Shown here: one piece after another, positions 1,729 through 63,633 of the stretch | Layout: every line of letters starts with the position of its first letter | How positions within the stretch are numbered: position 1 is the stretch's first letter | Assembly: GCF_010993965.1 (NCBI RefSeq) | Contig: NZ_WIXM01000001.1 | Coordinates: 62,001-126,000 of the forward strand | Length of the DNA: 64,000 nt | Origin: Gracilibacillus sp. YIM 98692 | GTDB taxonomy: Bacteria; Bacillota; Bacilli; Bacillales; Amphibacillaceae | Direction of reading: 5' to 3' | The notes under the pieces: model-generated | Told to the model about the DNA's origin: nothing | The model's database searches: none | The model's input: only the letters and a program-made list of their open reading frames with translations | Made by a program: the position numbers and the translations under genes

Positions 1729-1767
1729 TTTATAACCCCCTTTTTGATTAGTGACTCTACTTTTTCC

Positions 1768-1862
1768 GTGTCACTTTTAAATGTTTTTGCGCCACTATAT
1801 ATGTTATTCGAGTCACTTTTTTGTGGTTTCGAGCCACTTTTTTAAAGTTTTGCTCCACTTTA
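1768..1862. repeat. 21-bp-period repeat array, locus A (five units)
   Basis: Five degenerate units share the motif GNGYCACTTTT. The CAC triplets fall at 1772, 1793, 1814, 1835 and 1856, exactly 21 bp apart. Between the CACTT cores the sequence is AT-rich and variable. The same unit recurs near 35215, 63441, 63529 and (once) 13549. The array lies between the scrK terminator and the small membrane protein gene. Confidence 0.8.
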
Positions 1863-1912: not shown

Positions 1913-2788
1913 TTACGATTCATTTGGCATAGCTAAGTAAAGCGCACCTTTGACACCAGCTTCATCTGTTAAACCTGGTGATACAATATAGTTATCAATC
2001 TCTTTTTCTGTTAAATACGGAGAGCTGACATAACCATTTAGCATTTCTAGTACGTATTTACGAATAAGCGGGAATAGCTGCTTTTGTTTCATCACACCAC
2101 CGCCCATCACAATACGTTCCGGTGATAGAATATAAATATAGCTTGTGAGCGCTTGTGCTAGATAGTAAGCTTCCATTTCCCAAACTTTATCATCATCTGC
2201 TAGCTCTTGTCCTTTTTTGCCCCATCGCTTTTCTATTGATGGCCCGGCAGCGATTCCTTCTAAACAGTCCCCATGATATGGGCATGTACCTTGATACTGA
2301 TCATCTGGATGACGGCGCACTTTAATATGCCCCATTTCAGAGTGTGATAAGCCTTTTAAGGTTTGACCGTGAAAATAAGCTCCTGCCCCGATACCTGTTC
2401 CTACGGTAATATATAAACAAGTATCCACGTCTGTTGCATTTCCCCATTTTGCTTCAGACATCGCCGCAACGTTCACATCTGTATCAATTACGACTGGAAC
2501 GCCTAATTTTTCTTTTAATGTGGCACCTAAGGGATAATCAACCCAGTCTGTTTTTGGTGTTTTTTGCAGCTGGCCGTATGTTGGACTGTTTTCATTCACA
2601 TCGATTGGGCCAAAACCACCTAATCCGAGTCGCTCAATCCCTTTTCCTTCAAAGAATTCCAACACCTTTGGTACTGTGATATCTGGATGTTCAGTTGGAA
2701 TGACTTCTTTTTCATAGATTTCTCCTTGATCATTGCCTACAGCCAGAACAAATTTGGTTCCGCCTGCTTCAATTCCTCCTAGTTTCAT
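1913..2788 (-). CDS. scrK: Fructokinase, ROK family
   Basis: ATP-dependent phosphorylation of the fructose released when sucrose-6-phosphate is hydrolysed. The 291-residue protein has the ROK phosphate-binding loop GGIEAGGTKFVLAVG at residues 4-18. D104 in IDTDVNVAA is the expected catalytic base. The zinc-site residues H154, C169, H172 and C175 are in the CPYHGDCLEG region. The start at ATG 2788 has GGAGG nine nt upstream. It is 12 bp behind scrB, so the two are cotranscribed, and a terminator follows. Fructose specificity is inferred from the sucrose context; the same family includes mannokinases. Confidence 0.92.
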   Translation of the reverse strand: MKLGGIEAGGTKFVLAVGNDQGEIYEKEVIPTEHPDITVPKVLEFFEGKGIERLGLGGFGPIDVNENSPTYGQLQKTPKTDWVDYPLGATLKEKLGVPVVIDTDVNVAAMSEAKWGNATDVDTCLYITVGTGIGAGAYFHGQTLKGLSHSEMGHIKVRRHPDDQYQGTCPYHGDCLEGIAAGPSIEKRWGKKGQELADDDKVWEMEAYYLAQALTSYIYILSPERIVMGGGVMKQKQLFPLIRKYVLEMLNGYVSSPYLTEKEIDNYIVSPGLTDEAGVKGALYLAMPNES

Positions 2789-13052: not shown

Positions 13053-13493
13053 ATGAAAGCAGCCATTATTTATACGTCCGTGACAGGTAACACGTCTACC
13101 CTTGCTGACATTATCCATGAGCGAATGGAAAAGCGCGGTATAGACACAGATTTAATCCCAATTGATGAATTTCACGCTAACCAATTAAAAGAATATGACC
13201 TTATTGCTGTCGGCACGTACTCATGGGATAATGGCGACTTGCCGCTTGAAATGGAAGATCTTTATGAAGCATTTGAAATAGAAGATGTTAAGCATGTAAC
13301 AACCGGTGTTTTTGGTACTGGCGATAGCTTCTACCCCTATTTTTGCGGTGCGGTAGATCTATTTCGTGATATGCTGTATGTGCATACGAACCTAGCCGTT
13401 ACCTTAAAGGTGGAACTCATGCCACAAGATGACGACCTTGATCGCTGTGACAAATTCTGTGACAGACTAACAAGAGAACTCATTCCAGCATAA
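13053..13493 (+). CDS. Flavodoxin, third gene of the reductase operon
   Basis: A 146-residue flavodoxin with the FMN phosphate loop TSVTGNTSTLAD near the N-terminus, the 50s-side YSWDNGDLP loop and the FGTGDSFYPYFCGAVD loop around the isoalloxazine. It follows nrdF by 79 bp after an AAGGAGG site and is closed by a strong terminator. Position suggests that it serves the reductase, as NrdI or flavodoxin does elsewhere, by metallocofactor assembly or electron supply. Its sequence looks more like YkuN/YkuP flavodoxins than NrdI, so the exact role is inferred. Confidence 0.88.
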   Translation: MKAAIIYTSVTGNTSTLADIIHERMEKRGIDTDLIPIDEFHANQLKEYDLIAVGTYSWDNGDLPLEMEDLYEAFEIEDVKHVTTGVFGTGDSFYPYFCGAVDLFRDMLYVHTNLAVTLKVELMPQDDDLDRCDKFCDRLTRELIPA

Positions 13494-13548: not shown

Positions 13549-13840
13549 GTGGCCTGTTTATGAATTAGCATTTATTAGTTCGGGAGAGTGGAAGGCGGCG
13601 ACTCCTGCGGGAAAAGCATGAGTCCGAAGACCCCGCAGGATGCACCTGCGTCTTCTAGTAAAGCTTCGTAGTAGGCTTCCTCGGTGCAAGGGAGCAAAGA
13701 TGTTGTTTCAAGTAGTTCCCTGGCTGAGGCCATGCCAGGCGGCATAGAAAACACTACGAAAGCGATTTGTGCTTGAGTAGATGTTGCACTTGTGCCCTTG
13801 GGTGAAAGCGTCCGCCTAGAACGAACCCGAACGGTGAAAG
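13549..13840. repeat. GC-rich long-hairpin repeat with one 21-bp-family unit
   Basis: The segment starts with AGTGGCCTGTTTATG, a single unit of the 21-bp family seen at 63529. It is followed by an element bounded by AGGCGGCGACTC and GAAAGCGTCCGCCT. The interior has the blocks GACTCCTGCGGGAAAAGCATG, GACCCCGCAGG and GCTGAGGCCATGCC that recall the element at 4534-4651. The middle is longer and looks disrupted. No coding potential was found in the 360 bp between the flavodoxin and ureD. Confidence 0.5.
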
Positions 13841-34420: not shown

Positions 34421-35194
34421 ATGAAGAAGTTGTTAATGATGGTTTTAGCCATCGGTTTTGCCATGGTTTTAGCTGCATGTAATGGTGAAGAACAGACAGA
34501 TGAAGAAACAACCCCTGAGTCAGGTGAAGAGCAACCTGAAGAAACAGAAGGGGAAGAAAATCCAGAGGCTAATGCCGAAGGAGATAACGCTGCAGCTGTA
34601 AGTGACGAAGAATTGGTAGAAGAAGATCAAGCAGTGGTTAGTGTAAACGGCGAAGAAATTTCAGGAGAGCAATACAATCGTATTTATCCGCAAATGAAAA
34701 AAATGATGCAACAATATGGACAAGATGTTGGTGACACTGATGCTGTCAAAGAACAAACCATTAGCGAACTTGTAACACAGCAACTAATTGTACAAGATGC
34801 TGAGTCAAAGGGATTAGAAGTAACGGAAGAAGAAATTAATGCAGAAGTAGAAAGTGTTAAAGAAGAATTTGGTGACCAATATACAACGGTTCTTGAATCC
34901 TCTGGTTTTACAGAAGAATCCTTTAAAAAGCAGCTGCAAACTGATTTATTAAGAGATAAATATATGCAATCAGAACTTGATGTCGAAGTAACAGATGAAG
35001 AAATTGAAGAATATTACAATCAAGTCAAGAAGCAGCAAGGCCAGCAAGAAGGAGAGCAAGCTCAAGAACTACCTGAACTTGAAGAAATTAGAGATACCAT
35101 TGAAGAACAATTAGCGAAGCAAAAACAACAACAGCAACTAGGACCAAAAATAGAAGAATTACGCGAAAACGCTGAAATTGAACACCTTATTTAA
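34421..35194 (+). CDS. SurA-N-domain lipoprotein, PrsA-like without PPIase domain
   Basis: A secreted lipoprotein: signal peptide with lipobox VLAAC (C20), then a strongly acidic linker (residues 22-70), then a SurA/PrsA N-terminal helical domain (ISGEQYNRIYPQMKKMMQQY, LVTQQLIVQDAESKGLEVTEEEI). A Gln-rich coiled coil and C-terminal helix follow. No parvulin prolyl-isomerase domain is seen, and the 257 residues leave no room for one. It probably assists folding of exported proteins on the outer membrane face. ATGGAGG precedes the start. Confidence 0.85.
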   Translation: MKKLLMMVLAIGFAMVLAACNGEEQTDEETTPESGEEQPEETEGEENPEANAEGDNAAAVSDEELVEEDQAVVSVNGEEISGEQYNRIYPQMKKMMQQYGQDVGDTDAVKEQTISELVTQQLIVQDAESKGLEVTEEEINAEVESVKEEFGDQYTTVLESSGFTEESFKKQLQTDLLRDKYMQSELDVEVTDEEIEEYYNQVKKQQGQQEGEQAQELPELEEIRDTIEEQLAKQKQQQQLGPKIEELRENAEIEHLI

Positions 35195-35210
35195 TGAAGT
35201 AGATTTAATG

Positions 35211-35288
35211 GCGTCACTTTAAAGTGGAATCGAGCCACTTCTTATAAGAATTGCGCCACTTTTAAGCATTTTCGAGTTACTTTTTATA
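35211..35288. repeat. 21-bp-period repeat array, locus B (four units)
   Basis: Units GCGTCACTTT, GAGCCACTTC, GCGCCACTTT and GAGTTACTTT have their CAC/TAC at 35215, 35236, 35257 and 35278, exactly 21 bp apart. The array lies between the lipoprotein stop codon and its terminator, so it is transcribed as 3' untranslated RNA. Confidence 0.8.
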
Positions 35289-35293
35289 TTTAC

Positions 35294-35354
35294 AAAAAAA
35301 GAGGCTGTCTCCTAGTGTAAATTGTAATCGACACTGTGAGACAGCTCTTTTTTT
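35294..35354. terminator. Bidirectional intrinsic terminator
   Basis: GAGGCTGTCTC and GAGACAGCTC pair, flanked by A7 and T7. An inner AGTGT/ACACT pair extends the stem. It serves the lipoprotein gene and could also end minus-strand transcripts from the aldolase cluster. From 35395 to 35440 a partial copy of the interspersed element of 53374-53453 is seen. Confidence 0.85.
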
Positions 35355-35483
35355 ACCATATCATAATTTATATCGTGTTACAGTTGAAAGGAATTCGACG
35401 TAGCTACCACGATGAGGTAGATAGATAAGGGCAACTACGTCTCTAACTTCGCTAAAAGCTCGTTAATCGACGAGTTTTCTTTA

Positions 35484-53084: not shown

Positions 53085-53335
53085 GCTGAGAGCACTCCTA
53101 TCGGTAGTTTCTCCTCGATTTGCTGTGTTTCTCTGCTGATAGAGCGCTTCTATCAGCAGTTTCTTCCCGATTTGCTGTGCCTTTCTAATGTTAGAACGCT
53201 TCTATCGGCAGTTTCTTCCCGATTTACTGTGCCTTTCTGCTGTTAGAGCGCTTCTATCAGCAGTTTCTTCCCGATTTGCTGTGCCTTTCTAATGTTAGAA
53301 CGCTTCTATCAGCAGTTTTCCACGAATTCACCTGT
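53085..53335. repeat. 52-bp tandem repeat, five units
   Basis: The mark CGCTTCTATC (first copy CACTCCTATC) falls at 53093, 53145, 53197, 53249 and 53301, each 52 bp apart. Units share CAGTTTCTTCCCGATTTGCT. At unit junctions CTGCTGATAG and CTATCAGCAG are complementary across AGCGCTT, so each junction can form a hairpin or cruciform. No ORF with a ribosome site is present. Confidence 0.85.
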
Positions 53336-63439: not shown

Positions 63440-63471
63440 AGTGGCGCGAAACTGCTTAAAAGTAACGCATT
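63440..63471. repeat. 21-bp-period repeat, locus C (two units)
   Basis: AGTGGCGCGAAAC and AGTAACGCATT have their GTG/GTA at 63441 and 63462, 21 bp apart. On the minus strand they read GCGCCACTTT and GCGTTACTTT, identical in form to loci A and B. Confidence 0.65.
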
Positions 63472-63504
63472 AAAAAATAGCAGACTCTCGCGAAGAGTCT
63501 GCTA
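63472..63504 (-). terminator. Intrinsic terminator of the DUF421 gene
   Basis: TAGCAGACTCT and AGAGTCTGCTA form a perfect 11-bp stem around a 5-nt loop, followed by T6 on the minus strand. It lies 140 bp past the DUF421 stop codon, so the 21-bp array at 63528-63633 is inside that transcript. Confidence 0.85.
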
Positions 63505-63527: not shown

Positions 63528-63633
63528 AGTGGCCCGTTTATGTATTATAGTGACCTGTTTTATGTAAAAAATGACCCGTTCATAAGAAATACTGGCCCAT
63601 TTCTCCCAAATAGTGACCCGTTTATCGAAACTG
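63528..63633. repeat. 21-bp-period repeat array, locus D (five units)
   Basis: Units AGTGGCCCGTTTATG, AGTGACCTGTTTTATG, AATGACCCGTTCATA, ACTGGCCCATTTC and AGTGACCCGTTTATC start at 63528, 63549, 63570, 63591 and 63612, exactly 21 bp apart. Each translates as a seven-residue repeat in a plus-strand frame, but there is no ribosome site. Confidence 0.85.

Follow-up and report, generated by a model that had tools for sequence, protein, structure and literature searches.

Tandem repeats of 20–21 nt and 52 nt have been published from Bacillus genomes as an unexplained class of satellites (Subirana and Messeguer 2021, PMC8161180), a class that is also treated in PMC6749651 and PMC8625621. With a search setting of at least four repeats per array, 781 arrays of 20–21 nt and 1886 arrays of 51–53 nt were counted there in 176 Bacillus genomes (PMC8161180). 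In the accessible text of that article, the authors propose a nucleoid protein or a small RNA, name no partner protein and state that they have no indication of any Cas-like protein that interacts with repeats of 52 nt. For B. weihaiensis, the published signal is TCGCGG. As far as these satellites are characterized in that text, the arrays described here resemble them in their constant length and variable sequence, in forming several families per species, in being non-coding and in carrying short conserved signals, but differ in being tied to genes for NERD-domain proteins (treated in PMC9040797), with the two lengths going to two NERD subfamilies. The preliminary description of the window, i.e., of the whole 64-kb stretch of DNA analysed, had known of no named element of this form, which is half right, since the repeat class is in print, albeit as unexplained satellites (PMC8161180). 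Compared with the four-repeat setting, the window holds arrays of 5, 4, 2, and 5 units plus one lone unit, so that some lie under that limit.

REP and BIME elements are short extragenic repeats that occur dispersed in genomes together with one cognate gene for a DNA-processing protein (RAYT, TnpA-REP), a gene that has these repeats on its own flanks. The REP unit is palindromic, and the enzyme acting on it is an HUH transposase. As in these REP/RAYT systems (PMC8266576, PMC3686654, PMC3733652), a NERD gene is flanked by its own repeats, with dispersed extragenic copies. Unlike REPs, the arrays consist of direct phased cores with folding z-scores near 0 (three window arrays and the array of NERD gene L017), only GTGGCCAT folding well, and the linked gene encodes a NERD domain (PF08378) with a winged helix and no HUH transposase. 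Plasmid iterons are directly repeated units, each spanning about two turns of the helix, that adjoin the gene of the winged-helix Rep protein binding to them. The present arrays share this spacing as well as the neighbouring gene for a winged-helix protein, but they are dispersed in chromosomes, with no replication protein and no relative in 72,556 plasmid records. In CRISPR arrays, a constant and a variable part alternate beside a nuclease gene. The same alternation is seen here next to a nuclease-type gene, but the constant part has about 8–12 bp, the fillers measure about 10 bp, and each genome contains many sites; among three NERD proteins scanned, the only Cas match was a weak one to Cas8b for the type-2 protein (E = 0.0074).

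A literature search, with subscription papers and preprints outside its coverage, found no published link between NERD proteins and repeats. We take the pairing of NERD gene and array to be new, the repeats themselves belonging to a class that is known but unexplained. This class thereby gains a candidate partner protein, with its two lengths mapping onto two subfamilies, while NERD proteins gain candidate binding sites readable from the genome for each gene, and about a hundred natural protein–array pairs become usable for working out a recognition code. We consider it probable that the arrays serve NERD-domain nucleases as docking sites, the core being read by the winged helix, with a REP-like spread to gene ends.

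Arrays in the window and in the Gracilibacillus genome

The repeat arrays of the window are compiled in Table 1, for which genes were taken from ORF lists and hairpins were judged by eye.

Table 1. Repeat arrays and their surroundings in the 64-kb window
Feature	Position	Strand	Core starts	Context
5-unit array, GTGRCKCGAAA family	1767..1858	-	1767, 1788, 1809, 1830, 1851	21-bp steps exact; past T-run hairpin of gene 1913-2788 (minus strand), ahead of 57-aa ORF
Lone unit, second family (GTGGCCTG)	13549..13556	+		3' of gene 13053-13493 (presumably flavodoxin-like) and hairpin (by eye)
4-unit array, GTGRCKCGAAA family	35210..35280	-	35210, 35231, 35252, 35273	Between stop of gene 34421-35194 (257 aa; presumably a foldase-like lipoprotein) and hairpin
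52-bp tandem array, 4.4 copies, intergenic	53089..53318	-		Sister class; flanks presumably a small-multidrug-resistance-type transporter gene pair and a substrate-binding-protein gene
2-unit array, GTGRCKCGAAA family	63441..63469	+	63441, 63462	Past hairpin ~63481-63504 (by eye)
5-unit array, second family RTGRCCCGTTT	63529..63620	+	63529, 63550, 63571, 63592, 63613	Between minus-strand stop 63646 and hairpin ~63481-63504

All arrays were found where the preliminary description had placed them, with exact 21-bp spacing, and the position of those at 35210 and 63529 between a stop codon and a T-run hairpin was borne out. The core that it had given, GTGRCNCG, is exact in 7 of the 17 window units, the real core being looser, and its unit at 13549 is present but one base off. 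Instead of the single repeat family that it had assumed, we found two, namely GTGRCKCGAAA (at 1767, 35210, and 63441) and RTGRCCCGTTT (at 63529 and 13549). Taken alone, the 8-mer GTGRCNCG shows little enrichment in the window, with 8 matches compared to a mean of 4.1 in shuffled sequence and 5 of 100 shuffles reaching 8; phased core pairs with at most 3 mismatches numbered 12 against a shuffle mean of 2.7, and none of 100 shuffles reached 12.

Decisive counts were obtained for the whole genome (G000; 4.37 Mb in 69 contigs), in which the exact core-13-core pattern occurred 27 times and its backwards control not once, while allowing up to 2 mismatches gave 79 matches compared to 6. A loss of the spacing or a lack of core enrichment on the genome scale, either of which was to speak against the phasing according to the preliminary description, was thus not observed. 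Successive cores at most 70 bp apart at the loci of this genome were spaced by 20 (2 cases), 21 (38), or 42 bp (5) for one form and by 21 (18), 42 (2), or 63 bp (2) for the other, and 130 of 133 successive GTGGCC cores within the same distance lay 21, 42, or 63 bp apart. The strict window pattern was found in 2 of 61 genomes, the second with a single locus. With its two repeat families, the genome agrees with the 20–21-nt satellites of Bacillus, which form several, species-specific families.

Placement relative to genes was mixed: among 12 arrays of the genome, 3 ran opposite to the sense of the nearest gene and 5 were nearest to a 5' end, sense and antisense positions being found both before and after hairpins (8 of 32 arrays in this survey lay inside a mechanical ORF of at least 80 aa, taken as spurious). 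For the role at the RNA level that had also been suggested, a conserved structure is not supported as a shared feature, since three window arrays revealed folding z-scores of -0.99, -0.90, and +0.85; the NERD-linked array of L017 scored +1.26. Five GTGGCCAT arrays tested do fold (z of -3.6 to -6.5), the GTGGCCAT core forming a palindrome by itself.

The core of the array at 1767 is that of the array of NERD gene L017 on a different contig of the same genome, and the RTGRCCCGTTT core of the array at 63529 was found on none of the five NERD genes of this genome. The window arrays are best explained as dispersed members of two families, one with a NERD gene in the genome (contig C29) and the other without a NERD gene found. 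By eye, the region 35211–35440 is similar to locus L013 from about position 1459 over the array, the hairpin, and about 100–150 bp beyond, so that a larger element may travel along with the array. Beside the lone unit at 13549, a GC-richer stretch (13580–13800; GGAGAGTGGAAGGCGGCGACTCCTGCGGG...) bears some resemblance to another dispersed intergenic element of bacilli.

Linkage of arrays to NERD genes

Locus L017 (= L038) is an intact gene of 321 aa with a NERD domain (PF08378, E = 3.9e-17, 63.2 bits compared to a curated cut-off of 22.1). Its protein ends in ...EVARKS, the codons of V-A-R (GTG-GCG-CGA) forming the first of six units in an array that continues beyond the stop codon. Altogether, the genome carries five NERD genes. 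The second, L036, has a terminal array with equal period and a different core (CTGACSGATAA), L034 and L037, both of type 2, have upstream repeats of 51–52 bp, and the fifth, L033 (C66:170544), which is of another type, has neither a 20/21-bp nor a 52-bp array nearby, so that arrays are not a feature of every NERD subfamily. Among 146 genomes of the family, at least 115 had relatives of the L017 protein (E ≤1e-10, both types), frequently several each; of the loci from this search, those studied were the 30 best plus 40 chosen among the top matches listed. Another NERD locus, L095, belongs to Alkalihalophilus pseudofirmus OF4.

Counting all lags from 10 to 70 at 57 named NERD loci (mostly from genera of the Bacillaceae, decayed genes included), we found 58 lag-21 self-matching segments in the 56.8 kb within 500 bp of a NERD match and 24 in the 760.5 kb more than 1 kb away, i.e., 102 compared to 3.2 per 100 kb or about 30-fold enrichment at NERD genes. 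The next most frequent lags near NERD were 20, 40–42, and 60–63, and lags 22–38 and 43–59 gave only 0–2 segments each. An array with a lag of 19–22 was present at 50 of the 57 loci, or at 53 counting multiples. In a set of 116 type-1 genes, obtained from 124 loci (122 readable proteins) by removing 2 with more than two stops and 6 duplicates, the decayed loci L118, L121, L123, and L124 being excluded ahead of the count, 105 had an array with a period of 20 or 21 bp at most 600 bp away. Such an array was absent at threshold in the other 11, one of which (L049) has an array inside its coding tail. The NERD-linked arrays lay downstream in 68 cases and upstream in 37, often starting at the stop codon or, in some genes, within the NERD reading frame (TDK, VAR, and SGHK repeats), and their cores varied by gene. 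The best lag was 21 in 79 and 20 in 26 of the 105, the constant 20–21 nt length of the satellites. A coding repeat (21 bp being 7 codons) was rejected as a general rule in view of stop codons in units and of the arrays with lag 20.

The suggestion that phase is under selection is strongly supported, given 20- or 21-bp spacing over many cores and many genera. Spread by slippage, offered as another reading in the preliminary description, fails on its own for arrays with a constant core and fillers that differ from unit to unit, although some arrays did spread by copying. Any tandem array can grow by slippage, and a few long arrays near NERD genes (L105, L113) have near-identical units; plain slippage or chance periodicity with no partner protein is nevertheless highly improbable, as a period of 20/21 (or 52) bp is held over different cores and differing fillers with the enrichment at NERD genes given above.

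Random 100-kb samples from four NERD-rich and four NERD-poor genomes gave equal numbers of arrays with lags 20/21 at the preset threshold (8 and 8), and 7 compared to 1 with lags 51–53; a stricter cut chosen post hoc left 8 strong arrays of both classes in the NERD-rich and 0 in the NERD-poor samples, in a comparison that is small and in which NERD genes, probably of another type, are nonetheless present in two NERD-poor genomes (one in G027, two in G138).

The second repeat length goes with the type-2 proteins. Of 120 genomes of the order, 47 contained relatives of the type-2 protein L034, and 29 of 30 type-2 loci (corrected for contig ends) had a 51–53-bp array within 700 bp of the gene, amounting to 136 segments per 100 kb, other lags giving 0–2 segments each; at the single locus without an array, just 138 bp of downstream sequence were covered. 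The repeat of type-2 locus L145 is 96% identical to the B. thermoamylovorans satellite family 30_53_11 as far as that family is given in the published account, the next best of 720 pairs reaching 79% and the maximum of 720 shuffled ones 61%. Judging from the 20/21-bp arrays at type-1 genes, the 51–53-bp arrays at type-2 genes, and the L145 match, the two fixed satellite lengths in print appear to fall on the two NERD subfamilies. A motif close to AAACTGCNGATAGRAGCGYTCTA, about 23 bases long, is common to the 52-bp array of the window and to that of the type-2 NERD gene L125 on the same contig.

With respect to other origins, a plasmid element and a phage element were rejected, the NERD protein matching none of 72,556 plasmid (E 1e-5) and none of 50,697 phage records. 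In the NERD proteins scanned, similarity to known defence systems was limited to the NERD domain of PglW and MADS6, far under NCBIfam cut-offs, and this candidate was rejected as well.

The winged helix and the array core

An AlphaFold2 model of the L068 protein (48 aligned sequences, pLDDT 91) may be read as a nuclease-like domain, a zinc ribbon, and a C-terminal winged helix made of helices and strands. Residues E38, D70, E83, and K85 (L068 numbering) as well as four cysteines do not vary among the 48 intact NERD proteins aligned, and the first four are taken as a putative nuclease site. A Foldseek search against the PDB resulted in no match at E ≤0.001; the best matches, an R2 retrotransposon protein (0.0082, TM 0.23) and Can2 nucleases, are too weak for naming a relative. 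The conservation of these residues bears on the alternative that the arrays are structural nucleoid sites and the NERD protein is a nucleoid-organising protein rather than a nuclease in use. Such a protein is proposed in the accessible text of Subirana and Messeguer (PMC8161180), and the fixed helical period and the many sites per genome would suit it, but the invariant putative nuclease residues speak for catalysis, and a global organiser would hardly be expected to have several different cores in one genome. We regard this alternative as quite unlikely.

A natural swap of reader and array is seen between the sister species G. suaedae (L070) and G. lacisalsi (L072). While the bodies of their NERD proteins are 92% identical over 273 residues, the winged helices share only 55% over 42, and the core is GTGTCCAGA in the former and GTGCCCGAT in the latter. 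DNA identity amounts to about 93% until the winged-helix codons, 37–67% over winged helix and array (gaps scored as differences), and about 92% from the terminator on. At the level of these alignments, winged helix and array are thus seen to have been replaced jointly, as a cassette, between the two species. L036 and L068 have the same core, with bodies 40% and winged helices 62% identical; some of the 12 pairs compared point in the opposite direction, such as L070 and L074, which have winged helices that are 67% alike and different cores.

In 22 register-anchored genes of one clade, not independent since several share one core in related species, core similarity was correlated with that of the winged helix given the body (r = 0.48, p = 2e-4) and, less strongly, with that of the body given the winged helix (0.17, p = 0.036), the clade and register having been picked after the global result, the cores of L044 and L048 set by hand from units, and the first 60 alignment columns left out of the body. 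The top three columns and 11 of the best 22 fell in the winged helix, which makes up 38 of 272 informative columns. A cruder global Mantel test on 90 genes, in which core and winged helix given the body reached 0.10 and core and body given the winged helix 0.19, did not place the specificity in the winged helix.

Recognition of DNA by protein is the best explanation on account of the direct phased cores, the one protein with winged helix and putative nuclease site, and the joint change of reader and array. Genomes of this group possess several NERD proteins, each combining a NERD domain of the PD-(D/E)XK kind with a zinc ribbon and, at the C-terminus, a winged helix. Next to most of their genes, usually at the gene end, lies an array with a gene-specific core. 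According to the mechanism that we propose, the winged helix would recognise this core. The period of 20–21 bp, or 52 bp in the sister subfamily, would put successive sites on the same side of the DNA, and protein copies could then bind side by side, assemble cooperatively, and cleave. Arrays with the same core across the genome would serve as further docking sites; in GTGGCCAT, the one family examined in full, they lie directly behind stop codons and share the direction of the gene. A joint change of winged helix and array as a cassette can occur, and the remaining arrays would then follow or, having lost their partner, decay. In outline, this would resemble REP sequences with their RAYT protein, but with an unrelated nuclease in its place.

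Dispersed arrays and gene ends

Dispersed arrays often, but not always, match a NERD gene of the same genome. Pairs of GTGACTGA occurred in 2 of 17 genomes of the genus (G008 and G014), precisely those with a NERD gene bearing GTGACTGA; in G008, all 3 matches were at the NERD gene, and in G014, 2 of 4 were elsewhere. Pairs of GTGGCCAT were found in 9 of the 17 genomes, with zero backwards matches, and in 6 of these 9 one cluster adjoins a NERD gene. Arrays more than 1.2 kb from NERD at 34 named loci matched the locus's own core 4 times, compared to once in 340 trials with the core of a foreign locus. G012, G014, and G016 have GTGGCCAT arrays, the exact GTGGCCAT core being on no NERD gene among the matches listed; the core of the NERD gene in G016 is GTGGCCAG. 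Arrays for which no NERD partner was found, i.e., GTGGCCAT in these three genomes and RTGRCCCGTTT in the window, speak against the proposed pairing; they may be fossils.

Seven further loci of the own genome carry the L017 array including its fillers and partly its flanks, and L006, L007, L014, L022, and L304 contain, in addition to the array, pieces of the NERD 3' coding end of variable length. The upstream ends of these five copies are cut at differing points. L006, L007, and L022 have a foreign sequence in common (TTTAACGTCACTTCCGAGCAGG). Copies with varying ends would agree better with copying through break repair than with the action of a transposase, for which fixed ends would be expected. 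They also suit a purely selfish spread, in which NERD gene and array form a minimal mobile pair that is copied via nuclease breaks and repair and has no host function. Neither fixed ends nor target duplications were seen for such a pair, NERD genes look chromosomal, with no match in the plasmid and phage records, and the GTGGCCAT arrays were not copied recently, as their fillers mostly differ. Erosion fails to separate orphan arrays (9.2–10.0 of 11 core positions matched) from other L017-family arrays (8.75–10.3), copies of the L017 array reaching 10.3–10.8. We give selfish spread clearly less than even chances.

The position and sense of dispersed arrays can be seen in the GTGGCCAT family. 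Apart from those at NERD genes, we found 39 GTGGCCAT clusters (38 loci in nine genomes), of which 38 followed a gene read in the same direction, 31 between tandem and 7 between convergent genes, with none antisense between tandem genes. The start lay at most 62 bp past the stop codon in 35 of these 38 and at most 1 base past it in eight; independent events are fewer than 39, because many clusters have orthologs in other species, the purF junction alone accounting for six. This preference, together with a purF-purM slot that stays constant while its core differs by species, is also expected if the arrays are elements of transcription or mRNA at gene 3' ends (roadblock, insulator, 3'-end or intercistronic processing) at which NERD acts, the slot being selected whatever the core. 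The cores have no common RNA structure, own-genome arrays lie in sense and antisense before and after hairpins, an array inside the pur operon could hardly be a full terminator, and with many of the 39 clusters orthologous, the position may reflect tolerance or the mode of insertion. A 3'-end role of this kind appears possible but doubtful.

Returning to docking sites, we tentatively suggest, and hold to be rather unlikely, that the chromosomal nuclease system writes and renews its own address code, winged helix and array being exchanged as one cassette and arrays with the new core then replacing old ones genome-wide in the same post-stop slots as changing, lineage-specific marks of gene ends, with the nuclease acting in step with transcription. 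The purF-purM junction was compared in 17 genomes (L240–L256). Nothing was recognised in G007 and G005, G003 had only a hairpin with GTGGCG, G016, G009, and G013 had remnants, and G002 and the own genome one unit each. Six genomes harbored GTGGCCAT arrays, G014 a GTGTCCARTAA array, G004 a GTGGCGG array, and G006 two repeats of about 51 bp. At this one operon junction, at least three different 21-bp cores plus a repeat of about 51 bp are found across species.
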